Below, in pieces: positions 5,492-42,994 of a stretch of DNA of 43,888 nucleotides (its first letter is position 1; each line of letters begins with the position of its first letter). The stretch is from positions 1 to 43,888 of the forward strand of contig CAMNGB010000003.1 in the NCBI GenBank assembly GCA_946537835.1. The letters are read 5' to 3'. The stretch is from an uncultured Erysipelotrichaceae bacterium. GTDB taxonomy: Bacteria > Bacillota_I > Bacilli_A > Erysipelotrichales > Erysipelotrichaceae. The position numbers and the translations under genes are program-made. The notes under the pieces are model-generated. The model saw only the letters and a program-made list of their open reading frames with translations. It had not been told where the DNA came from and did not search any database.

Positions 5492-7258
5492 CTATATAAT
5501 TTCAACATTCTCAGCTCCGAACAGAGCCTTGATTCTGTCTTCTGCCGTTTCTTCTTTCTTTTTCTCTTCCGGATACCGTTCAATATGGCAGGCTTCCGGC
5601 AGACTGTTGCTGTGCATCAGTGTACGGAATGTACGCGATGCCTCCTTAAACTGGCTTTCCGTTACCGCAAAGATCATCTTGTCGATATCCAGCCGTTTTT
5701 TAATAAAACGATACAGTTCTTCGTTCATTGCCCGGTCATTGATTCTGTCTGCCGCCGCATTGTTGCTGCAGATCAGGATCAGACAGTCCTTTCCGGACGC
5801 ACCGATCTTTGTATCATGCAGAAGTGCCGTATATCTGCGGCTGGTCAGATCCATCATTGCATAGACATGATCGAACAGTTCTTCATCTGTTTTCTTTTCA
5901 TCCTTGCGGCACTGTACCAGCAGTTCCATCAGATCAAACGTGATTTTTCCGCCTTCTGCACCGGCAGATGCCGGAATCATATCAGAAACAGGCGCACTCA
6001 TCACCGGTTCTGCCTCTTCTTCCGGTTCATCGGCAGCCTCAACGGTCTTTTCCGCTGCCGGCATAAATACCGGTTCTTCCTTTACTGATGGTTCCGGTAC
6101 GGCAGGTTCTGCCGGTTTTGCTTTGACAACCGGCTGTTCCGGCCTGATTTTTTCAGCCGGCGCTGCATATGAAACCTGATTTCTTTCTTCGGTTGCCAGT
6201 TTCAGGCATACAACCTCAAAAACTGTCACTGCCGACTGGGCAAAACGGAATCTGTCACGGGCCGCAATCAGTTCTTCAGCTATATGCATGCATGATAAAG
6301 GCGATGCCATATTCCCGATTTCTTCCGCTTCTTCCCGCGTCAGAACCTTCAGAAGTGCTGTTTTATGCGTATTGGCATAAACAGCCGTATCTTTCATGAC
6401 ATCCAGCAGACCGTCGGTAAATCTCTGCAGGTCAATACCCCGCTGCTCATAGTTCCGGATTCTTTCCAGGATTCCTTCCAGATTGCAGTTCAGTATATCT
6501 TTTACAAGTTCAACCTTTTCGGCTGTCGTTGTCAGACCGTATATTCTGTCGATTGCTTCAACCGTGATTTCATCACCGGTATAGGAAGCACACTGATCCA
6601 TAATGCTCAGCGCATCACGCATTCCGCCTTCTGCCAGAACCGCAATCAGCTCAGCAGCCTCGGATTCCAGCAGAATCTTCTCTTTTTCGGCAATTCCCAG
6701 CAGATGATCGCGTATCTGGTCCTTTCTGACCTTTGTAAAGTCATATCTCTGGCAGCGGGAAATGATTGTCGGCAGAAGTTTCTGCGGATCCGTCGTTGCC
6801 AGGACAAAAATAACATTTTCCGGCGGCTCTTCCAGTGTTTTCAGAAGTGCTGAAGAAGCAGCACTGGAAAGCTGATGAACTTCGTCAATAATATATATTT
6901 TATATTTTCCCTGCATCGGAGCCAGACGGGAACGGTCGATCAGATCTCTGATATCTTCCACGTGTGTCTCGTTTGCGGCATTGATTTCAATAATATCCGG
7001 ATGGGTACCGTTATTTGCGGCAATACAGTTTTCACATTCACCGCACGGTGCCTTTTCAGGATGGTCACAGTTCACTGCCTTCGCAAGAAGTCTTGCCATT
7101 GTCGTCTTGCCGGTGCCTCTCGGACCGCAAAACAGGTATGCATGGCCTGTTTTATTGTTTCTTACGGCATTTTTGATTGACCTGACAATATATTCCTGCC
7201 CGACAACTTCCTCAAATGTGGCAGATCTGTATTTCTGATAAAGAGCTGTTTTTGCCAT
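5492..7258 (-). CDS. dnaX: DNA polymerase III subunit gamma/tau
   Basis: 588 aa; ALYQKYRSATFEEVVGQEYIVRSIKNAV, GPRGTGKTTMARLLAKAVNC, zinc motif. Confidence 0.97.
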   Translation of the reverse strand: MAKTALYQKYRSATFEEVVGQEYIVRSIKNAVRNNKTGHAYLFCGPRGTGKTTMARLLAKAVNCDHPEKAPCGECENCIAANNGTHPDIIEINAANETHVEDIRDLIDRSRLAPMQGKYKIYIIDEVHQLSSAASSALLKTLEEPPENVIFVLATTDPQKLLPTIISRCQRYDFTKVRKDQIRDHLLGIAEKEKILLESEAAELIAVLAEGGMRDALSIMDQCASYTGDEITVEAIDRIYGLTTTAEKVELVKDILNCNLEGILERIRNYEQRGIDLQRFTDGLLDVMKDTAVYANTHKTALLKVLTREEAEEIGNMASPLSCMHIAEELIAARDRFRFAQSAVTVFEVVCLKLATEERNQVSYAAPAEKIRPEQPVVKAKPAEPAVPEPSVKEEPVFMPAAEKTVEAADEPEEEAEPVMSAPVSDMIPASAGAEGGKITFDLMELLVQCRKDEKKTDEELFDHVYAMMDLTSRRYTALLHDTKIGASGKDCLILICSNNAAADRINDRAMNEELYRFIKKRLDIDKMIFAVTESQFKEASRTFRTLMHSNSLPEACHIERYPEEKKKEETAEDRIKALFGAENVEII

Positions 7259-7289
7259 CCTTTTTCTCCTGATTTAAACATTATAACAA

Positions 7290-7317
7290 AAATACCTGCA
7301 TACTATAGCAGGTATTT
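7290..7317 (-). terminator. intrinsic terminator after tadA
   Basis: Minus strand AAATACCTGCTATAGTATGCAGGTATTTTTGTT hairpin plus T-run. Confidence 0.7.
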
Positions 7318-7324
7318 GCCGTCT

Positions 7325-7810
7325 TTAAAGACTTTTCGGACCGATCTTCTTAATCTTTCTTTTGTTTCTGAAAAATTCTGACAGAATCGCTGCACATTCT
7401 TCTTTCAGAATACCGCTGTGTACTTCTTTCGGATATGCTCTGAGATGAGGAAGCGTCCTGATCTGGATCAGGGAATCAACTGTTCCTGCCTTTTCATCTG
7501 CAGTTCCGTAGTACAGGGCATGAAGACGGGCATTTTCAATTGCACCGGTGCACATCATGCAAGGTTCCAGTGTTACATACAGATCACAGTCCTGAAGACA
7601 CCATGTATTCAGCTTTTTATTGGCTTTCTGAATTGCCAGCAGCTCCGCATGTGCAGTCGCAGCCTGGTTTTTTTCACGCAGATTATGTGCTCTGGCTATG
7701 ATCCTTCCATCTTTTACAATGACACAGCCGACAGGCACTTCATCCATATTTCTTGCTTTTTCAGCCTCTTTCAAGGCTTTTCTCATGTAATATTCTGCAT
7801 TCTTTTCCAT
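7325..7810 (-). CDS. tadA: tRNA-adenosine deaminase TadA
   Basis: Cytidine/deoxycytidylate deaminase motifs TAHAELLAI and TLEPCMMCTGAI. The 201 aa track ORF is over-extended; start reassigned to MEKNAEYYM at 7810 because upstream sequence is SRP RNA. Confidence 0.92.
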   Translation of the reverse strand: MEKNAEYYMRKALKEAEKARNMDEVPVGCVIVKDGRIIARAHNLREKNQAATAHAELLAIQKANKKLNTWCLQDCDLYVTLEPCMMCTGAIENARLHALYYGTADEKAGTVDSLIQIRTLPHLRAYPKEVHSGILKEECAAILSEFFRNKRKIKKIGPKSL

Positions 7811-7820
7811 AAAAATAAAA

Positions 7821-7896
7821 TGGCACACGCAGACAGAGGGTTGTATGGCTGCTACCTTCCGGTCCTGACCAGGTTCTATCCATGAGTGCTGTGCCA
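7821..7896 (-). ncRNA. ffs: signal recognition particle RNA (small bacterial type)
   Basis: Minus strand contains the conserved SRP apical core ACCTGGTCAGGACCGGAAGGTAGCAGCCA, closed by terminal complementarity TGGCACA/TGTGCCA. Confidence 0.93.
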
Positions 7897-7901
7897 CTGG
7901 T

Positions 7902-7930
7902 ATTATAACCGAATCTTTTTCATGAAACAA
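7902..7930 (-). promoter_or_regulatory. sigma-A-type promoter of SRP RNA
   Basis: Minus strand TTGTTT - 17 bp - TATAAT positioned just upstream of the RNA 5' end. Confidence 0.8.
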
Positions 7931-7939
7931 CTAAATAAA

Positions 7940-7975
7940 AAACAGATTATGTTTCACGTGAAACAAAATCTGTTT
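7940..7975 (-). terminator. serS terminator-like hairpin containing parS
   Basis: AAACAGATT-a-TGTTTCACGTGAAACA-a-AATCTGTTT dyad within 11 nt of the serS stop codon. Confidence 0.65.
7950..7965. promoter_or_regulatory. parS: parS (ParB/Spo0J binding site)
   Basis: TGTTTCACGTGAAACA, a perfect match to the consensus TGTTNCACGTGAAACA. Confidence 0.93.
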
Positions 7976-7985
7976 TACATGTTTC

Positions 7986-9287
7986 TCAGAAGGATTTCTT
8001 TGTTTCCGGAGCCTTAATCAGTTCCTGACCGCCCATATACGGACGCAGGGGTTCCGGAATACGGATCGTTCCGTCTTCATTCAGGTTATTTTCAAGGAAT
8101 GCAATCAGCATACGCGGCGGAGCAACTACGGTATTGTTCAGTGTATGTGCGAAATAATTGCCGTTTTCTCCCTTGATGCGGATACCGAGTCTTCTTGCCT
8201 GGGCATCACCCAGGTTGCTGCAGCTTCCGACCTCAAAGTATTTCTTCTGACGCGGAGACCAGGCCTCAACGTCACAGCTCTTGACCTTCAGGTCTGCCAG
8301 GTCACCTGAACAGCATTCCAGTGTTCTTACCGGAATATCCAGGGAACGGAAGAATTCGACACTGTTCTTCCAGAGCTGATCATACCAGTACGGAGAATCT
8401 TCCGGCTCGCACACAACAACCATTTCCTGCTTTTCAAACTGATGCACACGATACAGACCGCGCTCTTCAATGCCGTGCGCACCGACTTCCTTGCGGAAAC
8501 ACGGGCTGTAGCTGGTCAGTGTATAGGGAAGATCTTCCTTTTTCAGAATCTGACCCATGAAACGGCCAATCATGGAATGTTCCGATGTACCGATCAGATA
8601 CAGGTCTTCTCCTTCGATCTTGTACATCATATTCTGCATTTCCGCAAAGCTCATGACACCGTTGACTACACTGCCGTGAATCATGAACGGCGGAATGAAA
8701 TATTCAAAGCCGCGGTTGATCATGAAATCACGGGCATAGGACAGAATCGAAGAATGCAGTCTGGCAATATCACCTTTCAGATAATAGAAGCCGTTGCCGG
8801 ATGTTCTTCCGGCACTGTCAAGGTCAATGCCCGCGACTTTTTCGATAATATCGATATGATACGGAATTTCATAATCCGGAACGACCGGATCGCCGTATTT
8901 CTGAATTTCTACATTTTCAGAGTCATCTTTGCCAATCGGAACAGACGGATCGATGATATTCGGAATGACCATCATTCTTTCCCGGATATCCGCTTCCAGC
9001 TTCTGTTCAAGAACTTCCAGGTCTTCCAGTTCCTGACCGATATTCTTGACCTGCTGCTTGACCTGTTCGGCTTCTTCTTTCTTGCCTTCCTTCATCAGAC
9101 CGCCGATCTGTTTGGACAGGCGGTTGCGGTCGGCTCTCAGACCGTCGCCCTTTGTCTTTGCGGCACGATACTGAGTATCCATTTCTGCTACTTCATCAAC
9201 CAGTACAAGTTTTTCATCCTGAAACTTCTTTCTGATGTTTTCCTTTACGAGTTCGGGATTTTCACGAATCAGTTTAATGTCTATCAT
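7986..9287 (-). CDS. serS: seryl-tRNA synthetase
   Basis: 433 aa; MIDIKLIRENPELVKENI, class II motifs including TLNNTVVAPPRMLIAFLENN. Confidence 0.98.
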   Translation of the reverse strand: MIDIKLIRENPELVKENIRKKFQDEKLVLVDEVAEMDTQYRAAKTKGDGLRADRNRLSKQIGGLMKEGKKEEAEQVKQQVKNIGQELEDLEVLEQKLEADIRERMMVIPNIIDPSVPIGKDDSENVEIQKYGDPVVPDYEIPYHIDIIEKVAGIDLDSAGRTSGNGFYYLKGDIARLHSSILSYARDFMINRGFEYFIPPFMIHGSVVNGVMSFAEMQNMMYKIEGEDLYLIGTSEHSMIGRFMGQILKKEDLPYTLTSYSPCFRKEVGAHGIEERGLYRVHQFEKQEMVVVCEPEDSPYWYDQLWKNSVEFFRSLDIPVRTLECCSGDLADLKVKSCDVEAWSPRQKKYFEVGSCSNLGDAQARRLGIRIKGENGNYFAHTLNNTVVAPPRMLIAFLENNLNEDGTIRIPEPLRPYMGGQELIKAPETKKSF

Positions 9288-9301
9288 TTCTTACCTCCGA
9301 A

Positions 9302-9540
9302 TAAAAAAACGCCCCTGCATAAAGGGACGATAATCAGCCGCGGTGCCACCCTTCTTGTATAAATTGTTTCCCGTGAAACAATTTATACCTCTCATCATTG
9401 CGGATAACGGCCGCAGCCGGAAATGACTGGTTTCACTCCGAGGCGGATTCGGTCTTTTCTGTGCCGGTTTTCATCCTCCACCGGCTTTCTGTCTGCTACA
9501 GTCCAGACGTACTTTTCCTCATCATTGCGTTATAAAAATT
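9302..9540 (-). promoter_or_regulatory. T-box riboswitch leader of serS
   Basis: Minus strand AAGGGTGGCACCGCGG T-box sequence followed by terminator CGTCCCTTTATGCAGGGGCGTTTTTTT; 5' AATGATGAGGA typical of T-box leaders; directly upstream of serS. Confidence 0.93.
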
Positions 9541-9630
9541 AAAACATTGCAAAAATGAATTGTCAAGAATTGACAAAAGTGCTAGTATCTTTAGTGGAAT
9601 ATTACAATCATTTTAGAAACGGACTAAATC

Positions 9631-9840
9631 ATGCCAAAAAAATCACAGTATAAACGCAAACTTGAGTACAACAACACTTACAATCGCAATAACTACAGAT
9701 CCTTTTCTGTACGCTTCAACAACAAATCCGAAACAGACATCATTGAATGGCTGGAAAAGAAGGAATTTGTCAAAGCTTATCTGACCGGTCTGATCAAGGC
9801 CGATATGGAAGCCTCAAAAAATAACGGTGGAACTGACTGA
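9631..9840 (+). CDS. small protein, possible ribbon-helix-helix DNA-binding protein
   Basis: 69 aa; basic N-terminus, strand (YRSFSVRF) followed by two helices. Fold assignment is inference. Confidence 0.55.
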   Translation: MPKKSQYKRKLEYNNTYNRNNYRSFSVRFNNKSETDIIEWLEKKEFVKAYLTGLIKADMEASKNNGGTD

Positions 9841-9849
9841 TAAAGATTG

Positions 9850-9880
9850 AAAGCATTGTCAGTGACAATGCTTTTTTTAT
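9850..9880. terminator. bidirectional terminator between convergent genes
   Basis: AAAGCATTGTCAGTGACAATGCTTTTTTT hairpin. Confidence 0.9.
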
Positions 9881-11349
9881 GGTTTCATTTTTCCTGATCC
9901 GTCTTTGTTGATGATATAGAATGTATTGTCATCCTTATTCTGATAATAGATTCTGTCACCGCTCACACAGATATTTCTTGATTTTTCTTCATTGATCAAT
10001 CGGAATCCGAGACCGTCTGTCTGCAGATATGCCATATATGTATCGCGGGCACCGCTGTATCCGTATATTCCGTCTTCCGTAACATTAATATAGTAGATAT
10101 AGTCGCTGTACAGATCAGTGATTTCGCCGGTTGTCAGATCATAGGAGGTAAAATAGTTCGTTACAAGATCATTGAAATACAGACAGTTTCCGGCAATGGT
10201 CATCCCTTCGACTTTATGATCCAGCATGCACTGAAGATTGTTTCCGTCCATATCGGCCCGGTAAAGATTGCCGTTGTCATCCTGATTGGAAAAATACATA
10301 TAATTGCCGTCCAGACACAGTGAATATGTTTTTTCCAGCGTATTTTCCAGTTTCACATCACGGCCGTCTGTATTCATTGAATACAGATGCAGGGAATCCT
10401 GGCTGTCTTTGTAATAGATTTTGTCACCGATTATCATGACATCTTCCGTCATGCCGTAATGCAGTGTTTCCTCTGCAGTTCCGTCGGTTTTGATTCTTTT
10501 GATGGCCGGATTGACAGAACTGGTATTGAAATAAACATACCCTTCAGAAACGCTGATGCATGCGGCCGGTTCTTCGCTCAGAACCCTGACTCCGCTGCCG
10601 TCCGGATTCATGCGGCATAGTTTATATCCGTCATTGGAACGGTAATAATAGTACGTTCCGTCCGTTGTCATATAGCCGCCGCTCTGCAGATTTCCCTGAG
10701 AATTTCCGACGGTATATGTTTCGGTAATATCCTGACTGATATGATCGGATATGACAGCAGCCGGCTCTGCTGTTCCGGTATCAGCTGTTTCTTCTCCCCC
10801 TTTCGGTTTCATCAGGAAGATTCCGGCAATGACTGCCGCAATGACAGCGATACCGGCAATAATATACAGCATATAATTCTTTTTCTTTGCCGGAACTGCC
10901 GGCTGTTTCATTTCGCTGACAGGAATCTCTGTCTCTATGCCGTCCATCTGATCTTTCAGAGCCCGGCACAGACGATACAGATTATTGATTGACTGTTCCA
11001 TATCACCGTCAATTGCATCAAGCCAGTGCACCGTAGACAGATAATACTTCATTCCGGCAGCCGGTTCTTCCTTTGTCAGACGGAACGGAACGATCGTTAC
11101 TCCTTCACTGACCGCATTGTTGACTTCTCTCAATACCTGTTTCGATATGTTGGAATCCTTTGTAAAAATCAGAACCATGATCTTTGTTTCGGAAATCGCC
11201 CTGATGATGGATTCAGCCCAGTCGGCTCCGGGTGTAATATCGCGCGGTGCATACCAGCAGCGCAGTCCGTTGTTCTCAAAACAGGAACAGACCGCATCAG
11301 CTGTTGTTTTGTCTATGTGCGAATAACTGATAAACACATCGTGATTCAT
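9877..11349 (-). CDS. membrane-spanning TIR-domain receptor with extracellular DUF5050-like beta-propeller
   Basis: 490 aa; N-terminal TIR (MNHDVFISYSHIDKTTADAVCSCFENNGLRCWYAPRDITPGADWAESI...SNISKQVLREVNNAV), single TM (KKKNYMLYIIAGIAVIAAVIAGIFLM), C-terminal repeats of MNPDGSGVR/IKTDGTAEE/MNTDGRDVK/ADMDGNNLQ type. Confidence 0.85.
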   Translation of the reverse strand: MNHDVFISYSHIDKTTADAVCSCFENNGLRCWYAPRDITPGADWAESIIRAISETKIMVLIFTKDSNISKQVLREVNNAVSEGVTIVPFRLTKEEPAAGMKYYLSTVHWLDAIDGDMEQSINNLYRLCRALKDQMDGIETEIPVSEMKQPAVPAKKKNYMLYIIAGIAVIAAVIAGIFLMKPKGGEETADTGTAEPAAVISDHISQDITETYTVGNSQGNLQSGGYMTTDGTYYYYRSNDGYKLCRMNPDGSGVRVLSEEPAACISVSEGYVYFNTSSVNPAIKRIKTDGTAEETLHYGMTEDVMIIGDKIYYKDSQDSLHLYSMNTDGRDVKLENTLEKTYSLCLDGNYMYFSNQDDNGNLYRADMDGNNLQCMLDHKVEGMTIAGNCLYFNDLVTNYFTSYDLTTGEITDLYSDYIYYINVTEDGIYGYSGARDTYMAYLQTDGLGFRLINEEKSRNICVSGDRIYYQNKDDNTFYIINKDGSGKMKP

Positions 11350-11361
11350 AGTGACTCCCTG

Positions 11362-11886
11362 TCAGTCTGTAATTTTGCCTTCGTTCATATCATAGTGAAG
11401 TGTATAGTGTTCACCATTCCAGTTGAATTCCACAACGATAACGGTTCCTTCCTGATGTACTTTGATGTCTTCTGCCCCTCCGGAATATCCTTCCACATGA
11501 CTGAATGCCGCATTGATAGCCTGTTCCATCGGATCAGCTGCCTCTCTGGTTTTCTGAATCACTTCTTCCGGTATATTATGTTCTGTCATTTCGCCGGTAT
11601 ACTGATTGATTTTGCAGAAGTATTCAGTACCTTCAACAGTAAAGCTGATTTTGACATTATCTTCATTATCAGGAACTGAAATATGTACATTGTCTATTTT
11701 GGAAAGTGTCAGGCCCAGCTGATTCATTGACTGATCAAGCATTTCTTCGCTGCTCAGTGCTTTTTTGACTGTTTCCGAAACGGTTTCTTCTGCCGGTTTT
11801 TCGTTTCCTGTCTCCGGTTTCGGACTTCTGCAGGCACTGCACATCAAAACAGATGCCAGTAATAATAAAAGCTTTTTCATTTTCAC
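11362..11886 (-). CDS. probable lipoprotein with two PepSY-like repeats
   Basis: 174 aa; signal peptide MKMKKLLLLLASVLMCSAC; repeats ...VEGTEYFCKINQYTGEMTEH and ...WNGEHYTLHYDMNEGKITD. 12 nt upstream of the TIR gene. Confidence 0.65.
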   Translation of the reverse strand: MKMKKLLLLLASVLMCSACRSPKPETGNEKPAEETVSETVKKALSSEEMLDQSMNQLGLTLSKIDNVHISVPDNEDNVKISFTVEGTEYFCKINQYTGEMTEHNIPEEVIQKTREAADPMEQAINAAFSHVEGYSGGAEDIKVHQEGTVIVVEFNWNGEHYTLHYDMNEGKITD

Positions 11887-11963
11887 TCCCTTCTCTGATT
11901 ATCATTAACAGAGCATTGCTTAATTTCAGTATAGCAATATAAGTTAAAAAAACATGCAGACAT

Positions 11964-12014
11964 ATAAAAACAGATATGAAATACATATCAGAATGCTTTC
12001 ATATCTGTTTTCTG
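11964..12014 (-). terminator. gyrA terminator
   Basis: Long hairpin AAAACAGATATGAAA...TTTCATATCTGTTTTTATATG. Confidence 0.8.
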
Positions 12015-12016
12015 TT

Positions 12017-14506
12017 CTATTCTTCCGTTGTTTCTTCTTCCGTTTCCTCTGCTTCCGGTTCGAGAATGGCAACCGTGGATACCTTCTGATCATCCTTGAC
12101 ATTGATGACCTTGACACCCTGAGCCGAACGGCTGTAGACAGATACCTGCGTCAGCGTAATTCTGATGACAATGCCGGAATCGGTCATGATCATGCAGTCT
12201 TCATCGCCGCTGACTGCTTTCATACATACAAGCGGTCCTGTCTTGTCCGTGACATTGACGGTCTTGACACCCTTGGCACCTCTTGAAGTCATGCGGTAGT
12301 CATCCAGCGGAGACTTTTTGCCGTAGCCTTTTTCGGTAATCGTAAGAATATATCTTCCTTCCGAATCGGTAGCCATGCCGATGACGGTTCCGCCGTCGGT
12401 ATTGAATCCCTTGACGCCTCTGGCAGTACGGCCGAGCGGACGGATATAGTCTTCCTTAAACCTGACAGCCTTGCCGTTGGATCCGGCAATGATAATTTCA
12501 TTGCTGCCGGTCGTTCCTTTGACAAATGCCAGTTCATCATCTTCGGAAAGCCTGATGGCAATCTTGCCATTGCGGTTGATGTTGTAGAATTCGGAGATTT
12601 CCGTTCTCTTTACAATACCGTTCTTTGTCGCAAAGAATAGATATTTTACATTCTCGTCTTCGGTATACGGAACCAGAGCACGGATTTTCTCGTTTCTGTT
12701 CATCTGCAGCAGGTTGATGACCGGAATGCCCTTGCTGGTACGGCTGAATTCAGGCACATTGTATCCCTTCATGCGGAATACCCGGCCGGTGTCGGTAAAT
12801 ACCAGCAGGAAGTCATGTGTCGACATGGAAATGACCTGATCAGTCACATCATCCTTGTTCAGTTCCATTCCCTTGATGCCCTTGCCGCCGCGGTTCTGCA
12901 CACGGTAGGAATCTGTTGTCATGCGCTTGATATAGCCGTTGGCAGAAAGGCTGATCATGATATTCTCAACCGGAATCAGATCTTCGTCTTCCATATCTGC
13001 CGGTGCATCGATGATTTCGGAGCGGCGCGGATTGCTGTATTTATCCTTGATGGCAAGCAGTTCTTCCTTAATGATTTCAAGAACTCTGTGATGATTTGCC
13101 AGAATATCCTTGTAATCGGCAATCTTTACCAGCAGATCCTGATATTCATTTTCGATTTTCTGCCGTTCCAGACCGGTCAGACGGCGGAACTGCATATCAA
13201 GAATTGCCTTGGCCTGGATTTCATCAAGTCCGAAACCTTCCATCAGACGCGGCATTGCCTCATTGGCATCACGGGAATCACGGATCGTATGAATGATGGC
13301 ATCCAGATTGTCTACGGCAATGCGCAGACCTTCCAGGATATGTGCCCTGTCTTCTGCCTTTTTCAGATCATATCTGGTTCTTCTGACAATGACATCTTCC
13401 TGATGGGCAAGATATCCCTTGATCATATCGATCATGCTTGCCTGGCGGGGAATGCCGTTGAACAGAACAACGTTGTTGACGCCGAAGTTCGACTGCAGCG
13501 GCGTCAGCTTGTACAGCTGATTGAGCAGCACTTCCGGCTGAACGTCCTTGCGCAGTTCCATGACAACACGGACACCGTTCATATTGCTGGATTCATCACG
13601 GAGATCGGTAATTCCTTCAATGACCTTGTCCCTGGCAAGAGAGGCAATGCGTTCTATCATGCTGGCCTTGTTGACCATATAGGGAATCTCATAGACAACG
13701 ATTCTCTTCTTGCCGTTCGGCATATCTTCGATATTTGTCTTGGCCCGCATGATGACACTGCCGCGGCCGGTTTCAAATGCCTGACGGATACCGCTTCTTC
13801 CGAGAATATATCCGCCGGTCGGGAAGTCCGGACCTTTGATATATTCCATCAGTTCGGTTGTTGTCATTTCCGGATTGTTCATGACGGCAATGACACCGTC
13901 GATTGTTTCACCGAGGTTATGCGGTGCAACATTGGTAGCCATGCCGACAGCGATACCGGTGGAGCCGTTGACAATCAGATTCGGAAAACGGGCCGGCAGA
14001 ACAGTCGGTTCTGTTTCCTCATTGTCATAGTTCGGTTCCATATCCACGGTTTCCTTGTCCAGATCTCTCAGCATTTCCACTGCAATCTTGGACATTCTGG
14101 CTTCCGTGTAACGCATGGCTGCAGCACCGTCGCCGTCCATGGAACCGAAGTTTCCGTGACCGTCAACAAGTGTTTCGCGCATATTCCAGTTCTGTGCCAT
14201 ATATACCAGGGCACCGTAGATGGAACTGTCACCGTGCGGATGATATTTACCCATCGTGTCACCGACAATACGTGCACACTTGCGGTGCGGCTTGTCAGGA
14301 CCGTTGTTCATTTCATGCATGGCATAGAGAATTCTTCTCTGTACCGGTTTCAGGCCGTCTCTTACATCAGGAAGAGCTCTGGCTACGATTACTGACATGG
14401 AATAGTCAATGAAGTCTCTCTTCATTTCCTCTGTCAGATTTGTTTCGGAAATATGACCCGGATCAAATTTTGTTTCGTCAAATTCCATAAAATCATCAAG
14501 ACCCAT
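12017..14506 (-). CDS. gyrA: DNA gyrase subunit A
   Basis: 829 aa; MSVIVARALPDVRDGLKPVQRRILYAM, MGKYHPHGDSSIYGALVYMAQ, C-terminal GyrA boxes (NRGGKGIKGM, GRTARGVKGF). Confidence 0.98.
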   Translation of the reverse strand: MGLDDFMEFDETKFDPGHISETNLTEEMKRDFIDYSMSVIVARALPDVRDGLKPVQRRILYAMHEMNNGPDKPHRKCARIVGDTMGKYHPHGDSSIYGALVYMAQNWNMRETLVDGHGNFGSMDGDGAAAMRYTEARMSKIAVEMLRDLDKETVDMEPNYDNEETEPTVLPARFPNLIVNGSTGIAVGMATNVAPHNLGETIDGVIAVMNNPEMTTTELMEYIKGPDFPTGGYILGRSGIRQAFETGRGSVIMRAKTNIEDMPNGKKRIVVYEIPYMVNKASMIERIASLARDKVIEGITDLRDESSNMNGVRVVMELRKDVQPEVLLNQLYKLTPLQSNFGVNNVVLFNGIPRQASMIDMIKGYLAHQEDVIVRRTRYDLKKAEDRAHILEGLRIAVDNLDAIIHTIRDSRDANEAMPRLMEGFGLDEIQAKAILDMQFRRLTGLERQKIENEYQDLLVKIADYKDILANHHRVLEIIKEELLAIKDKYSNPRRSEIIDAPADMEDEDLIPVENIMISLSANGYIKRMTTDSYRVQNRGGKGIKGMELNKDDVTDQVISMSTHDFLLVFTDTGRVFRMKGYNVPEFSRTSKGIPVINLLQMNRNEKIRALVPYTEDENVKYLFFATKNGIVKRTEISEFYNINRNGKIAIRLSEDDELAFVKGTTGSNEIIIAGSNGKAVRFKEDYIRPLGRTARGVKGFNTDGGTVIGMATDSEGRYILTITEKGYGKKSPLDDYRMTSRGAKGVKTVNVTDKTGPLVCMKAVSGDEDCMIMTDSGIVIRITLTQVSVYSRSAQGVKVINVKDDQKVSTVAILEPEAEETEEETTEE

Positions 14507-31144: not shown

Positions 31145-31158
31145 AACAGAGGAGTGTG

Positions 31159-32301
31159 ATGAACAAGATGTTTGATATCAGTGATCTGAGAAGAAATGAA
31201 TTCATGCTGAAGGGATCATTCGCCAAAAAAGGATATGACTGGTGGTGGCATTCCTTTACCGGCATCGATGCCGAAAACGGCGAAGAGAAATCATTCTTTA
31301 TTGAATTTTATACGTGCAATCCGGCGCTGGGCGGTGACAGGCCTGTCTTCGGACAGCTGCCGGAAAACAAGGAACAGCATATCCGGCCGTCCTATCTGAT
31401 GGTCAAGGCCGGCTGCTGGGGTGAGGATGCCTGCCAGCTGCACCGGTTCTTCGGCTGGAATGATGTCACCATGCATGAAAAAGCTCCCTACAGCATTACG
31501 GCCGGGGACTGCTATGCTTCGGACAATCTGCTGAAGGGACATGTCTGCGTCAGTGAAGAAGAGGTGAAGGAACATCCCGAATATATGAGCGATGCCGGTG
31601 AGATGGAATGGGAGCTGCAGGTCGACAAGCAGATTGCCTTCAATGTCGGCTACGGTGCTTCATCCTTCTTCCGTCTGATCAAGGCTTTTGAAATGTACTG
31701 GCATGCGGAAGGAATGAAGACTTTGTACAGAGGCGAAGTGCGTTTCAACGGCCGCAAGTATATTGTCATTCCCGAAAAGTCATACGGCTATGCCGACAAG
31801 AACTGGGGCAGGGGCTTTACCAGTCCCTGGGTATGGCTGTCTTCCAATGCCCTGTTTTCGGCAAAGGAAAACCGTTTCCTGGAAAACAGTGTCTTTGATA
31901 TCGGCGGCGGATGCCCGAAGGTATATTTCATACCGCTGAAAAGAAAGCTGCTCGGTGCCCTGTATTATGAAGGCCGGGAATTTGAATTTAATTTTTCAAA
32001 ATTCTGGACACTTCCGAAGACGGCCTTTGATTTCCGGGAAGATGATGAGAAGGTTTACTGGCATGTCGTACAGGAAAACAGCGGCTATATCATGGAAACG
32101 GATATTTCATGCCTGAAAAGGGAAATGCTGAAGATCAATTACGAAGCACCGGACGGAACCAAGAGGCACAACAATCTCTACAACGGCGGCACCGGCATCG
32201 GCACCGTCAGGATCTATGCCAAGACGGCAGAAGGAAAAGTGCTGATCGACGGGATCTCGGTGACCCACTGCGGCTGTGAATACGGAGAATACGACCGCTG
32301 A
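31159..32301 (+). CDS. tocopherol cyclase-like domain protein
   Basis: 381 aa ORF from 31156 (start likely GTG/ATG at 31156-31159); KNWGRGFTSPWVWLSSN and overall lipocalin-like pattern of the tocopherol cyclase family. Confidence 0.6.
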   Translation: MNKMFDISDLRRNEFMLKGSFAKKGYDWWWHSFTGIDAENGEEKSFFIEFYTCNPALGGDRPVFGQLPENKEQHIRPSYLMVKAGCWGEDACQLHRFFGWNDVTMHEKAPYSITAGDCYASDNLLKGHVCVSEEEVKEHPEYMSDAGEMEWELQVDKQIAFNVGYGASSFFRLIKAFEMYWHAEGMKTLYRGEVRFNGRKYIVIPEKSYGYADKNWGRGFTSPWVWLSSNALFSAKENRFLENSVFDIGGGCPKVYFIPLKRKLLGALYYEGREFEFNFSKFWTLPKTAFDFREDDEKVYWHVVQENSGYIMETDISCLKREMLKINYEAPDGTKRHNNLYNGGTGIGTVRIYAKTAEGKVLIDGISVTHCGCEYGEYDR

Positions 32302-38515: not shown

Positions 38516-39061
38516 ATGGATCTGAAAGAAAAAACAATCAAAAAGGAGTATGTCTATCAGGGACTGATCCTCAATGTCCGCAAGGATGAAGCGGAAACGG
38601 CAGACGGCCAGAGAGTGCCGCGGGAAGTTGTCGAACATCCCGGCGGCGTCGGCATTGCCATGGAAGACGATGAAGGAAAGTTCTTCATGGTAACCCAGTA
38701 CCGCTATGCCCAGGAGAAGGTCATGACAGAATATCCGGCCGGCAAGCGGGAAGCAGGGGAAGAACCGCTGCTGACGGCGCAGCGTGAGATCATCGAAGAA
38801 ACCGGCTATGAAGGAACGGATTTTTTCTATCTCGGACAGATGGCGCCGACACCGGCATACGACAGCGAGATTATTCATCTGTTTTATGCAAGGCAGGGAG
38901 AATTCAGGGGCCAGCACCTGGATGCGGATGAAGATCTGAATGTATCAAAGATGACATTGGACGAAATCACTGCGAAAATTGTCAGTGGAGAAATCACCGA
39001 TGCCAAGACCATTGGCATGACATTCTTAGTCAGAGCATATAAGGAGGGGAAATATGACTAA
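38516..39061 (+). CDS. Nudix hydrolase, ADP-ribose pyrophosphatase-like
   Basis: 181 aa; Nudix box GKREAGEEPLLTAQREIIEETGY fits GX5EX7REUXEEXGU. Confidence 0.93.
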   Translation: MDLKEKTIKKEYVYQGLILNVRKDEAETADGQRVPREVVEHPGGVGIAMEDDEGKFFMVTQYRYAQEKVMTEYPAGKREAGEEPLLTAQREIIEETGYEGTDFFYLGQMAPTPAYDSEIIHLFYARQGEFRGQHLDADEDLNVSKMTLDEITAKIVSGEITDAKTIGMTFLVRAYKEGKYD

Positions 39062-41030
39062 AGAACCAGTAGTAATCAGAGATCTGCTGAATTTCAGATT
39101 TCCGGAAAACCTGCAGTACAGCCCGAAGGGAACCTACCTTGCTTTCCAGGTTGCGAAGGCAAACGAAAAGAAGAACAGCTATGACCGTGATGTATGGCTC
39201 GTAAAGGACGGCAAGGCAAAACAGCTGACCGCCACACTGAATACATCCATCATCGGCTGGGAAGATGATACGACACTGGTTGTCACCAGACCGACGGAAG
39301 ATGATGTCCCGGGAATGACAAATCTGTTCAGAATCGATGTGACCGGCGGCGAAGCACAGAAATGGATCACTCTGCCGTTTGCTGTCAGAGAATTCAAGAA
39401 GGTATCCAGCGGAGTCTATGCGGCACTCGGCCTGATCGATGCCAATGACCCGGATGCATATAAGGACAACGAAGAAACCAGAAAGAAGAAGCTGGAAGAA
39501 AAGAAAGCCGAAGAAGACTACCATGTCGTGGACGAAGTTCCGTACTGGTTCAACAATGTCGGCTATATCAACAAGCGCAGAACGGCTCTGTTTATCGTAA
39601 AGACAGGTGCCGGCGTTGAAAGCAGAAGAGTGACTGCACCGAAGTTTGATGTTGCTGAAATCCTGGTGGAAGGAAACAAGGTCTACTATGCCGGCAATAC
39701 GAAAGACAGAAGACAGCAGATGACAGACAAGGTATATGCCTATGATACCGAAAGCGGCAAAACCGAGACGGTCTACGGCAAGAATACCCATTCCATCCAC
39801 AGCCTGATGTTCCTGAAGGGCGAACTGTATGCCCAGGCTTCCGATATGAAGGAATTCGGCATCAATGAGACCGGTGCCTTCACAAAGATTGCCGATCAGA
39901 AGCTGGAAACCATTCTCAAGCCGGAACGGCAGCTTCATGATACGGTCGGCGGCGATATCAGCCTCGGCGGCGGCCGTCAGAGCAAGGTCTTCAGGGATGC
40001 CTTCTATACCCTGGCAACGGAAGAAGATCATACCGAACTGTGGAAGTATGACAGCAGCTTCAACAAGACTGTCCTGCTTGCGGAAACAGGCAATACATAT
40101 TTCTTTGATGTTGCCGGCAAAAAGATTGCCTTTGCCAGAGCATCGGAAACAAGCCTCATGGAAATCTATGAGATGGATCTGAACGGCAAAAATGTTGTCA
40201 AGTTAACAAATCTGAACGGCGATGCCCTCAAGGGCAAATACATTGCCAGGCCGAATCTGATCAACTACACCTCCGGTGAGGATCAGCTGCACGGCTGGGT
40301 GCTGCTGCCGCAGAACTTTGACAAAAAGAAGAAGTATCCGGCAATTCTGGATATCCACGGCGGTCCGCGTACGGTCTACGGCACCAACTTCTTCCATGAA
40401 ATGCAGGTCTGGGCTTCCAAAGGCTATGTTGTCTTCTTTACCAACATCAGAGGCTCTGACGGACGCGGCGATGAATTTGCCGATATCAGGGATCAGTACG
40501 GTTCTGTCGACTTCGACAACCTGATGGACTTTGTCGATGCCGTACTGAAGAAGTATCCGAACATCGATGAAAAGAGAATCTGCGAAACCGGCGGATCCTA
40601 CGGCGGCTTCATGACCAACTGGATCATTACCCATACCGACAGATTCTGCTGTGCTGCTTCCCAGCGTTCCATTGCCAACTGGGTCAGCTTCTCGTTCATC
40701 AGCGACATCGGTCTCTATTTCGGACCGGATCAGTGCGGTGCCAGGGGACTCTTCGGCGAAGCCAACACGGAATATCTGTGGAATCATTCGCCGCTGAAGT
40801 ATGCCGAAAACTGCAAGACACCGACGCTGTTCATCCACAGTGACGAAGACTTCAGATGCCCGCTGCCGGAAGGCATGCAGATGATGCAGGCACTGGCTGT
40901 GCGCAATGTTGAAACACGTCTTGTTGTCTTCAAGGGTGAGAACCATGAACTGAGCCGCAGCGGCAAGCCTCTGCACAGAATCAGACGTCTGGAAGAAATC
41001 ACCGGCTGGTTTGAAAAGCACGCAAAGTAA
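39054..41030 (+). CDS. S9-family (acylaminoacyl-peptidase/prolyl oligopeptidase-like) serine peptidase
   Basis: 658 aa; N-terminal beta-propeller, GGSYGGFMTNW nucleophile motif, catalytic Asp/His region DEDFRCPLPEGMQMM and GENHELSRSGKP. Confidence 0.93.
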   Translation: MTKEPVVIRDLLNFRFPENLQYSPKGTYLAFQVAKANEKKNSYDRDVWLVKDGKAKQLTATLNTSIIGWEDDTTLVVTRPTEDDVPGMTNLFRIDVTGGEAQKWITLPFAVREFKKVSSGVYAALGLIDANDPDAYKDNEETRKKKLEEKKAEEDYHVVDEVPYWFNNVGYINKRRTALFIVKTGAGVESRRVTAPKFDVAEILVEGNKVYYAGNTKDRRQQMTDKVYAYDTESGKTETVYGKNTHSIHSLMFLKGELYAQASDMKEFGINETGAFTKIADQKLETILKPERQLHDTVGGDISLGGGRQSKVFRDAFYTLATEEDHTELWKYDSSFNKTVLLAETGNTYFFDVAGKKIAFARASETSLMEIYEMDLNGKNVVKLTNLNGDALKGKYIARPNLINYTSGEDQLHGWVLLPQNFDKKKKYPAILDIHGGPRTVYGTNFFHEMQVWASKGYVVFFTNIRGSDGRGDEFADIRDQYGSVDFDNLMDFVDAVLKKYPNIDEKRICETGGSYGGFMTNWIITHTDRFCCAASQRSIANWVSFSFISDIGLYFGPDQCGARGLFGEANTEYLWNHSPLKYAENCKTPTLFIHSDEDFRCPLPEGMQMMQALAVRNVETRLVVFKGENHELSRSGKPLHRIRRLEEITGWFEKHAK

Positions 41031-41032
41031 TT

Positions 41033-42994
41033 ATGAAAAAAGAACAGATCAAAATCGAAGATATTCTGAACTACAGATACCCGTCCGGACTGCGTTTCAG
41101 TCCGGATGGGAAAGTTCTGGTCTTTGAGGTGGCCGGCACAAAGAAAGACAGGAGCGGCTATTACCGTGATGTCTGGATGGTCAGGGACGGCAGGGTTTCC
41201 CAGCTGACGGCTTCCCTGAATGCCGGCATTCTGGACTTTGAGGACAGCAGTCATCTGCTTCTGAGAAGAACCGGAAACGATCATGAGGACGGAACGTCGG
41301 AAGTATTCCGCATCGATGTCAGCGGCGGTGAAGCACTGCCGTACATGACACTGCCTCTGGCACTTTCTTCCCTGAAGGCAGTCGGAAAGAACCGCTATGT
41401 TCTGACCGCTTCGATTGAGCGGGATGATCCCGATGCCTATCAGGACAGCGCCGAAGTCAGAAAAGAAAAGCTGGAAAAGAAAAAGCAGGACAGGGACTAT
41501 CATGTTGTCGATGAAATTCCCTACTGGATCAACAATGTCGGATTCATCAACGGCAAAAGAACGGCACTGTTCCTGCTGGAAGACGGAAAGCTGAAGCGGC
41601 TGACCGGACCGAACACCAATGTTGATGAATTTGTCGTTGACGGCGACACGGTCTATTACACAGCTGAAACCTGGACGGGAAAGATGAAGATGCGTGACTG
41701 CATCTATGCATATTCCCTGAAGACAGGAAAGAGGGAAACCCTCTGGGGCAGAAAAAACATGGCAATTTCAAACCTGTTTGTTCTGGATCATCAGCTGTAC
41801 TGTCAGGCAACCGACAAGAAGGCATACGGCTCCAATGAGACAGGCATGATCGTAAAGGTCCTGAAGAATGAACTTGCCTTTGTCAAGGATCCGGTGCTGG
41901 CTCTGCACAGCAGTGTCGGCTCCGATGTGACCATGGGCGGCGGAAAGCAGAATACCGTGGACGGAAACGCCCTGTATTCGCTGGTGACGGACGATGATCA
42001 TACGGCCGTATGGAAGTTTGACAGGAATTTCAGACAGACAGCCGTTCTGGATCGGAATCTTGCCATCAAATGCCTGGATGTGAAAAAAGGCAGGATCGCA
42101 GTCATCGCATCTGATGAAACCCATCTGTTTGAAGTCTATGAACTGGAAAACGGGGAACTGAAGAAGCTGACATCCTTCAATGATGAAGCACTGAAGGGCC
42201 GCTATATTGCCAGGCCGAAGCGGGTGGACTTTACATCCGGTGACACCCAGCTGCACGGCTGGGTGCTGCTGCCGCAGAATTATAACAGAAAGAAAAAATA
42301 TCCGGCGATCCTGGATATTCACGGCGGACCGAGAGTTGTCTACGGAACCAATTTCTTCCATGAGATGCAGCTGTGGGCATCCCGCGGCTTTGCGGTGATG
42401 TTCTGCAATATCAGAGGTTCGGACGGAAGAGGCGATGAATTCGCCGATATCCGTGATCAGTACGGATATGTCGATTATGACAACCTGATGGATTTCACCG
42501 ATGCGGTTCTGAAACAGTATCCGAATATTGATGACAAGAAGGTGTGTGTGACCGGCGGATCCTACGGCGGCTTCATGACCAACTGGATCATCGGCCATAC
42601 CGACAGATTCTGCTGTGCCGTATCGCAGCGTTCGATTTCCAACTGGATCTCAAAAGCGCTGATTTCCGATATCGGCTATTATCACAATGCCGATCAGCAC
42701 GGTGCACCGCATATCTTTGACGGCTTTGATCATCTGTGGGATCATTCACCGCTGCACTATGCACAGGGCTGCAAGACGCCGACGCTGTTCATTCACAGTG
42801 AAGAGGACTACCGCTGTCCGCTGCCGGAAGGCATGCAGATGATGCAGGCCCTGGCCGTGCAGAATGTTGAGACGCGGATGGTAATCTTCAAGGGTGAGAA
42901 CCATGAACTGAGCCGCAGCGGCAAGCCTCTGCACAGAATCAGAAGACTGAAGGAAATGACAGACTGGTTTGAGAAACACACCGGCCTGCGCTAA
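41033..42994 (+). CDS. S9-family serine peptidase, tandem paralogue
   Basis: 653 aa; same motifs as the preceding gene. Confidence 0.93.
   Translation: MKKEQIKIEDILNYRYPSGLRFSPDGKVLVFEVAGTKKDRSGYYRDVWMVRDGRVSQLTASLNAGILDFEDSSHLLLRRTGNDHEDGTSEVFRIDVSGGEALPYMTLPLALSSLKAVGKNRYVLTASIERDDPDAYQDSAEVRKEKLEKKKQDRDYHVVDEIPYWINNVGFINGKRTALFLLEDGKLKRLTGPNTNVDEFVVDGDTVYYTAETWTGKMKMRDCIYAYSLKTGKRETLWGRKNMAISNLFVLDHQLYCQATDKKAYGSNETGMIVKVLKNELAFVKDPVLALHSSVGSDVTMGGGKQNTVDGNALYSLVTDDDHTAVWKFDRNFRQTAVLDRNLAIKCLDVKKGRIAVIASDETHLFEVYELENGELKKLTSFNDEALKGRYIARPKRVDFTSGDTQLHGWVLLPQNYNRKKKYPAILDIHGGPRVVYGTNFFHEMQLWASRGFAVMFCNIRGSDGRGDEFADIRDQYGYVDYDNLMDFTDAVLKQYPNIDDKKVCVTGGSYGGFMTNWIIGHTDRFCCAVSQRSISNWISKALISDIGYYHNADQHGAPHIFDGFDHLWDHSPLHYAQGCKTPTLFIHSEEDYRCPLPEGMQMMQALAVQNVETRMVIFKGENHELSRSGKPLHRIRRLKEMTDWFEKHTGLR

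Follow-up and report, generated by a model that had tools for sequence, protein, structure and literature searches.

TIR domains form the core of several described systems with which the present locus can be compared. The Thoeris protein ThsB is cytosolic and senses the phage capsid inside the cell, and the staphylococcal ThsB2 depends on a Phe/Glu pair (F6/E81; both PMC12578639). TIR-STING of CBASS and the CRISPR-associated Cat1 have a TIR NADase output and are triggered by cyclic nucleotides. Characterised bacterial TIR immune proteins compared here sense invaders inside the cell. Animal Toll-like receptors are single-pass proteins of type I with an N-terminal LRR and a C-terminal, cytoplasmic TIR domain. 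The gut-type bacterium described here, an uncultured member of the Erysipelotrichaceae, carries a two-gene unit of a lipoprotein and a TIR membrane protein. What is new here is a TIR protein that spans the membrane according to its predicted topology, whose sensor is predicted to face outward and which comes with a putative lipoprotein partner. No description of a membrane-spanning bacterial TIR receptor with an external propeller or LRR was found in the literature searched, the coverage of which was incomplete.

The source genome is a draft of 1.92 Mb in 178 contigs (82% complete), and the genomes compared with it are draft MAGs. The window, i.e. the whole stretch of 43,888 nucleotides that was analysed, lies on contig 3. 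Its minus strand carries dnaA, dnaN, recF, gyrB and gyrA, directly followed by the lipoprotein gene (11362-11886, 174 aa) and then by the TIR gene (9877-11349, 490 aa), so that both ORFs and the position next to gyrA near oriC agree with the initial annotation. A small convergent gene (9631-9840, plus strand, 69 aa) and serS follow beyond the TIR gene; most congeners have a conserved counterpart of this small gene, 62-92 aa long, at the gyrA-serS junction. The two minus-strand genes are separated by 12 nt (11350-11361), which contain a Shine-Dalgarno motif (GGGAG) as read from the sequence, and form one transcription unit. An AT-rich hairpin with a U-run (11957-12020, minus strand, z = -5.3) upstream of the pair terminates gyrA, and a bidirectional intrinsic terminator (9850-9874, z = -5.2) is shared by the end of the pair and the convergent gene. 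Terminators thus flank the pair on either side, which makes it a two-gene operon of its own. A candidate extended -10 element (TGCTATACT) was spotted by eye between the gyrA hairpin and the lipoprotein gene. The lipoprotein possibly starts at the ATG at 11880 (172 aa) and not at the GTG at 11886, as a GGGAG is located just before this ATG. Elsewhere in the window, a protein with a tocopherol-cyclase-like domain (31156-32301, plus strand; PF14249, 6e-8) is unexpected in such a genome, and two genes of the S9 prolyl-oligopeptidase family are arranged in tandem with 2 nt between them (39054-42994, plus strand).

The N-terminal part of the 490-aa protein (residues 1-126; 10972-11349) is a TIR domain. 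Pfam TIR_2 matches residues 5-120 far above its cut-off (E = 2.8e-20), profiles of PDB TIR structures match as well, and in the AF2 model residues 1-135 adopt the alternating beta-alpha fold with a pLDDT of about 90. Among PDB sequences, the TIR profile matches metazoan TIR-STING and Cat1 best. F6 and E75 are invariant in an alignment of 17-18 diverse TIR domains, and in the PDB profile comparison the Glu of Roq1, metazoan TIR-STING and Cat1 falls at the position of E75; the catalytic Glu noticed earlier is therefore retained. NAD+ cleavage by this domain is plausible from its sequence, since the Phe/Glu pair is the one needed in ThsB2.

By the features tested, the pair is neither Thoeris nor CBASS. 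With ThsB the window protein shares the TIR fold, the Phe/Glu active-site pair and a presumed conversion of NAD+ into a signal, but ThsB is cytosolic, whereas the window protein is predicted to span the membrane, and no ThsA is located beside the pair. Models of the ThsB family are not reached (Pfam ThsB_TIR 13.7 against a cut-off of 21.2, NCBIfam ThcB4 13.5 against 220), and the PADLOC ThsB model scores just 18 bits, over the TIR fold. A search of the four genomes with the pair for the Thoeris effector domain STALD (PF18185) was empty, its control being equally silent. TIR-STING and Cat1 resemble the window protein in their TIR NADase output, which is predicted for the latter, and differ in their trigger, cyclic nucleotides instead of an external ectodomain. 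TIR effectors of CBASS or Pycsar would stand next to a CD-NTase or cyclase and carry a sensor domain for cyclic nucleotides; the neighbours of the pair are gyrA and serS, with no adjacent CD-NTase or other cyclase and no CRISPR genes, and CAP12-PCTIR remains below its cut-off (17.3 against 24.7). Assignment to a known defence system was rejected: PADLOC and NCBIfam gave weak matches to the TIR fold only, the other PADLOC matches across the window come from mfd and are helicase cross-hits, and PADLOC found no defence gene near the pair in the window.

TIR adaptors are known in animals, and bacterial TIR domains can likewise act as protein-protein adaptors. The domain might accordingly be a catalytically silent scaffold, a homotypic adaptor for another cytoplasmic TIR protein, a role for which many congeners would offer partners, as they encode several other TIR proteins, and with which the Val in place of the Trp found in WxxE motifs would agree. 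We regard this as very doubtful, because F6 and E75 are invariant and the source genome, at 82% completeness, contains no second relative of the TIR protein at E<=0.001.

The 490-aa protein possesses one hydrophobic segment (residues 161-179; 10813-10869). Its N-terminal flank is rich in lysine (+4/-1) compared with the C-terminal flank (+2/-3). The AF2 model, built from 17 sequences (mean pLDDT 75.6, pTM 0.45), resolves the TIR domain, a helix at 159-179, a disordered linker and an all-beta region at 225-490. A single strong transmembrane segment follows the TIR domain in each of the 21 TIR-TM proteins examined, and in nearly all of them the TIR side is the more basic one. A signal-anchored, single-pass type II protein (N-in/C-out) is thus predicted, with the TIR domain inside and the C-terminal domain outside, as the initial annotation had proposed. 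This C-terminal domain (residues 216-490; 9880-10704) is a predicted extracytoplasmic seven-bladed beta-propeller, and its earlier reading as DUF5050-like is borne out: Pfam DUF5050 covers residues 216-480 with 138 bits against a cut-off of 27 (E = 3.7e-40), and the seven-bladed propeller 3s25 is the best PDB match both by Foldseek (E = 2.5e-15, TMt 0.70) and by sequence (4.8e-12).

This architecture recalls animal Toll-like receptors, which are likewise single-pass proteins with a cytoplasmic TIR and an external ligand-type domain, and some relatives from Clostridia also share the LRR ectodomain. The order is reversed in the window protein, however, with the TIR domain N-terminal in a type II protein, a propeller takes the place of the LRR, and the catalytic Glu is kept. 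The Toll-like layout suggested for this protein therefore holds as an analogy, and membership of the Toll-like receptor family does not; the two fusions of TIR and ectodomain are compared by layout, not by descent.

The lipoprotein carries a lipobox with Cys19, which is kept in four orthologues, and a PepSY-like fold with two degenerate repeats is supported for it by profile and structure comparison. The Pfam PepSY match stays below threshold (16.8 against 24 bits). Profile comparison with hhalign, by contrast, relates the lipoprotein to canonical two-PepSY lipoproteins from its own genus (94.7%) and its first half to its second (90%). The repeats cover about residues 45-105 and 112-174. A single-sequence model (pLDDT 64, pTM 0.42) displays two units of a helix and four strands, and in Foldseek this low-confidence model has a single match under 0.001, lipoprotein 4exr of C. 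difficile. Weaker matches comprise DUF2874 (entry 4k61), a BLIP-like protein (4fr9) and YpeB (5boi). The PepSY-repeat lipoprotein of the initial annotation is thereby recovered. As a rule, PepSY domains inhibit secreted enzymes or serve them as chaperone-like modules.

Full-length orthologues of the TIR protein are present in 3 of 69 congeners (G011, G063 and G044), which are the three nearest relatives by GyrA (93-94%; next relative 83%). In all three the lipoprotein gene is located directly upstream of the TIR gene, so that a survey of co-occurrence finds the pair in four of four genomes of the clade; it is absent from about 65 other congeners surveyed. G011 has the pair between gyrA and serS, as in the window. 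In G063 and G044 this site lacks the pair, which is located instead between a locus of NADPH-glutamate-synthase type and a nucleoside phosphorylase (names from sequence inspection); the latter site is occupied by a HAD hydrolase gene in the source genome and in G011. The earlier step from the position next to gyrA near oriC to a housekeeping role was rejected: in the sister genomes the gyrA-serS site is empty and the pair has another location, and the remaining congeners do not have it. The pair is a clade-restricted accessory unit that moves as one. In other congeners the gyrA-serS junction contains variable cargo (L124, L128, L129, L133 and L135), e.g. a probable permease and HSP20-like genes, which suggests a permissive insertion spot. 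In locus L080 of G063, two large proteins (1-2991 and 7239-10913), apparently DUF4062/STAND-NTPase-like in sequence, flank a canonical PepSY lipoprotein.

Between the source genome and G063, identity is 77% for the TIR domain, 61% for the propeller and 40% for the lipoprotein, with 76-95% for 13 housekeeping neighbours; the exposed parts of the pair thus change fastest. The dN/dS ratios are 0.03 (TIR), 0.10 (propeller) and 0.16 (lipoprotein), with 0.02-0.11 in flanking controls. All parts are under purifying selection, which is strong for the TIR domain and graded from inside to outside.

These data also bear on the question of whether the lipoprotein is merely a chance or transcriptional neighbour of a TIR protein that acts alone. 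G044 possesses an extra, solo lipoprotein paralogue without a TIR gene, which shows that the lipoprotein can occur apart from the TIR protein, and no lipoprotein gene neighbours the TIR-TM relatives that carry other ectodomains. We nevertheless consider functional independence rather unlikely, given that all four genomes keep the two genes together, across two chromosomal locations, and that a homologue from Clostridiaceae is also preceded by a lipoprotein, albeit a different one.

This homologue (L031), from a Clostridiaceae MAG, is a TIR-TM-DUF5050 protein cut by the contig end and located 24 nt after its lipoprotein. A deeper survey on the Bacilli side yielded no additional TIR-TM-DUF5050. 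A wider scan covered 391 genomes of the class of the Clostridiaceae relative and 188 of its order. In Clostridia, the TIR-TM unit occurs with other ectodomains, namely DUF6273, LRR_4, an LVIVD propeller, Sel1 and a trypsin-like domain. The TIR domains of 19 TIR-TM proteins form one supported clade (99/96) and cluster by ectodomain. Judged by sequence, this is a modular family in which a constant signalling half of TIR, basic linker and transmembrane segment is joined to exchangeable, presumably external halves. TIR-TM-LRR proteins (L089, 1501-3657; L091, 487-2163; L092, 1-2031; LRR_4 up to 8.8e-35) combine a Toll-like composition with the catalytic Glu in bacteria. The Clostridia proteins with DUF6273, LRR, LVIVD and Sel1 share the TIR half and its clade with the window protein, but their ectodomain differs and their partner gene is absent or encodes an RyR/TrkA-N protein instead of a lipoprotein. 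RyR-domain genes are located directly upstream of two TIR-TM-LRR genes (L089, 1200-1511; L092, 2041-3428) and one TIR-TM-LVIVD gene (L152, 2035-3513), and one RyR gene beside TIR-TM loci is fused to TrkA_N. The RyR-domain gene is possibly a partner or signal receiver of these proteins. As a partner of the window-type pair it was rejected, for none was found in the four genomes that carry this pair; the Clostridiaceae genome does have RyR genes, yet none on the contig of its TIR gene. In the order of the window, zinc ribbon-TM-DUF5050 proteins (L013, L016 and L017; zinc ribbon from the cysteine pattern) possess the same back half of transmembrane segment and propeller, with a zinc ribbon replacing the TIR domain inside the cell. 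Six congener loci (L007, L008, L009, L010, L011 and L012) encode a further TIR-TM family, whose ectodomain of ~330 aa is unrelated and has no Pfam match.

We give slightly better than an even chance to a two-component transmembrane alarm, in which an outside cue would lead to TIR clustering and NAD+ cleavage. Of this reading, we infer that a ligand is bound, that the lipoprotein makes contact, that clustering occurs and that NAD+ is cleaved, as well as the physiological role. The TIR protein would sit in the membrane as a type II sensor, propeller out and TIR in, and the lipoprotein, located on that membrane's outer side, may be a ligand-binder, a co-receptor or a brake; co-conservation and the inhibitor-like nature of PepSY and BLIP folds point to an inhibitor or co-receptor. 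A cue from the envelope or cell surface would bind the propeller and/or displace the lipoprotein, the propellers would cluster or re-orient, and the TIR domains would be brought together. Their assembly would switch on NAD+ cleavage, as NADase or by cyclic-ADPR synthesis, with dormancy, death or a second-messenger signal as the possible outcome. Domains and topology, the invariant F6 and E75, the pair kept in all four genomes at two sites with reciprocal vacancy, the independent Clostridiaceae protein behind a different lipoprotein, the inside-to-outside selection gradient and the exchange of ectodomains within one TIR clade argue for this alarm. The lack of defence genes nearby and of an RyR partner in the four genomes, the solo paralogue in G044, the moderate confidence of the propeller and lipoprotein models, the draft state of the MAGs and the adaptor roles open to bacterial TIRs weigh against it.

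The cue might also come from the cell itself. Propeller and PepSY lipoprotein would then watch the wall or protein folding, and the TIR domain would signal without killing and outside immunity. Strong purifying selection on all parts, presence throughout a small clade, the typical role of PepSY as inhibitor or chaperone-like module and the lack of a defence-island context fit such an envelope-homeostasis sensor. The bacterial TIR enzymes known so far function in conflict, however, and the pair is missing from about 65 other congeners, occupies two chromosomal sites and diverges more than its neighbour genes; a purely homeostatic role appears unlikely to us. For the alarm, surveillance against phages or competitors is slightly favoured over envelope-stress sensing because of the patchy distribution, relocation and divergence. 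Against an immune role stand the lack of defence genes nearby and the empty search for a known effector, the control of which was silent.

A possibility that we advance tentatively, and hold short of even, is that these proteins represent a novel class of transmembrane TIR receptors, in which a constant catalytic TIR-TM module is combined with swappable ectodomains (propellers, LRRs, Sel1, DUF6273) and, in some cases, a dedicated lipoprotein co-receptor, and which would convert outside events into NAD+-based immune signalling. If so, bacteria would also carry surface-type TIR receptors with their predicted sensing half outside the membrane, a bacterial counterpart of the cell-surface Toll-like receptors. 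The immune signal would be raised at a stage when no phage genome or toxin has yet acted in the cell. Whether TIR signalling at the cell surface is an animal invention or has functional parallels in bacteria would then become a directly testable question.
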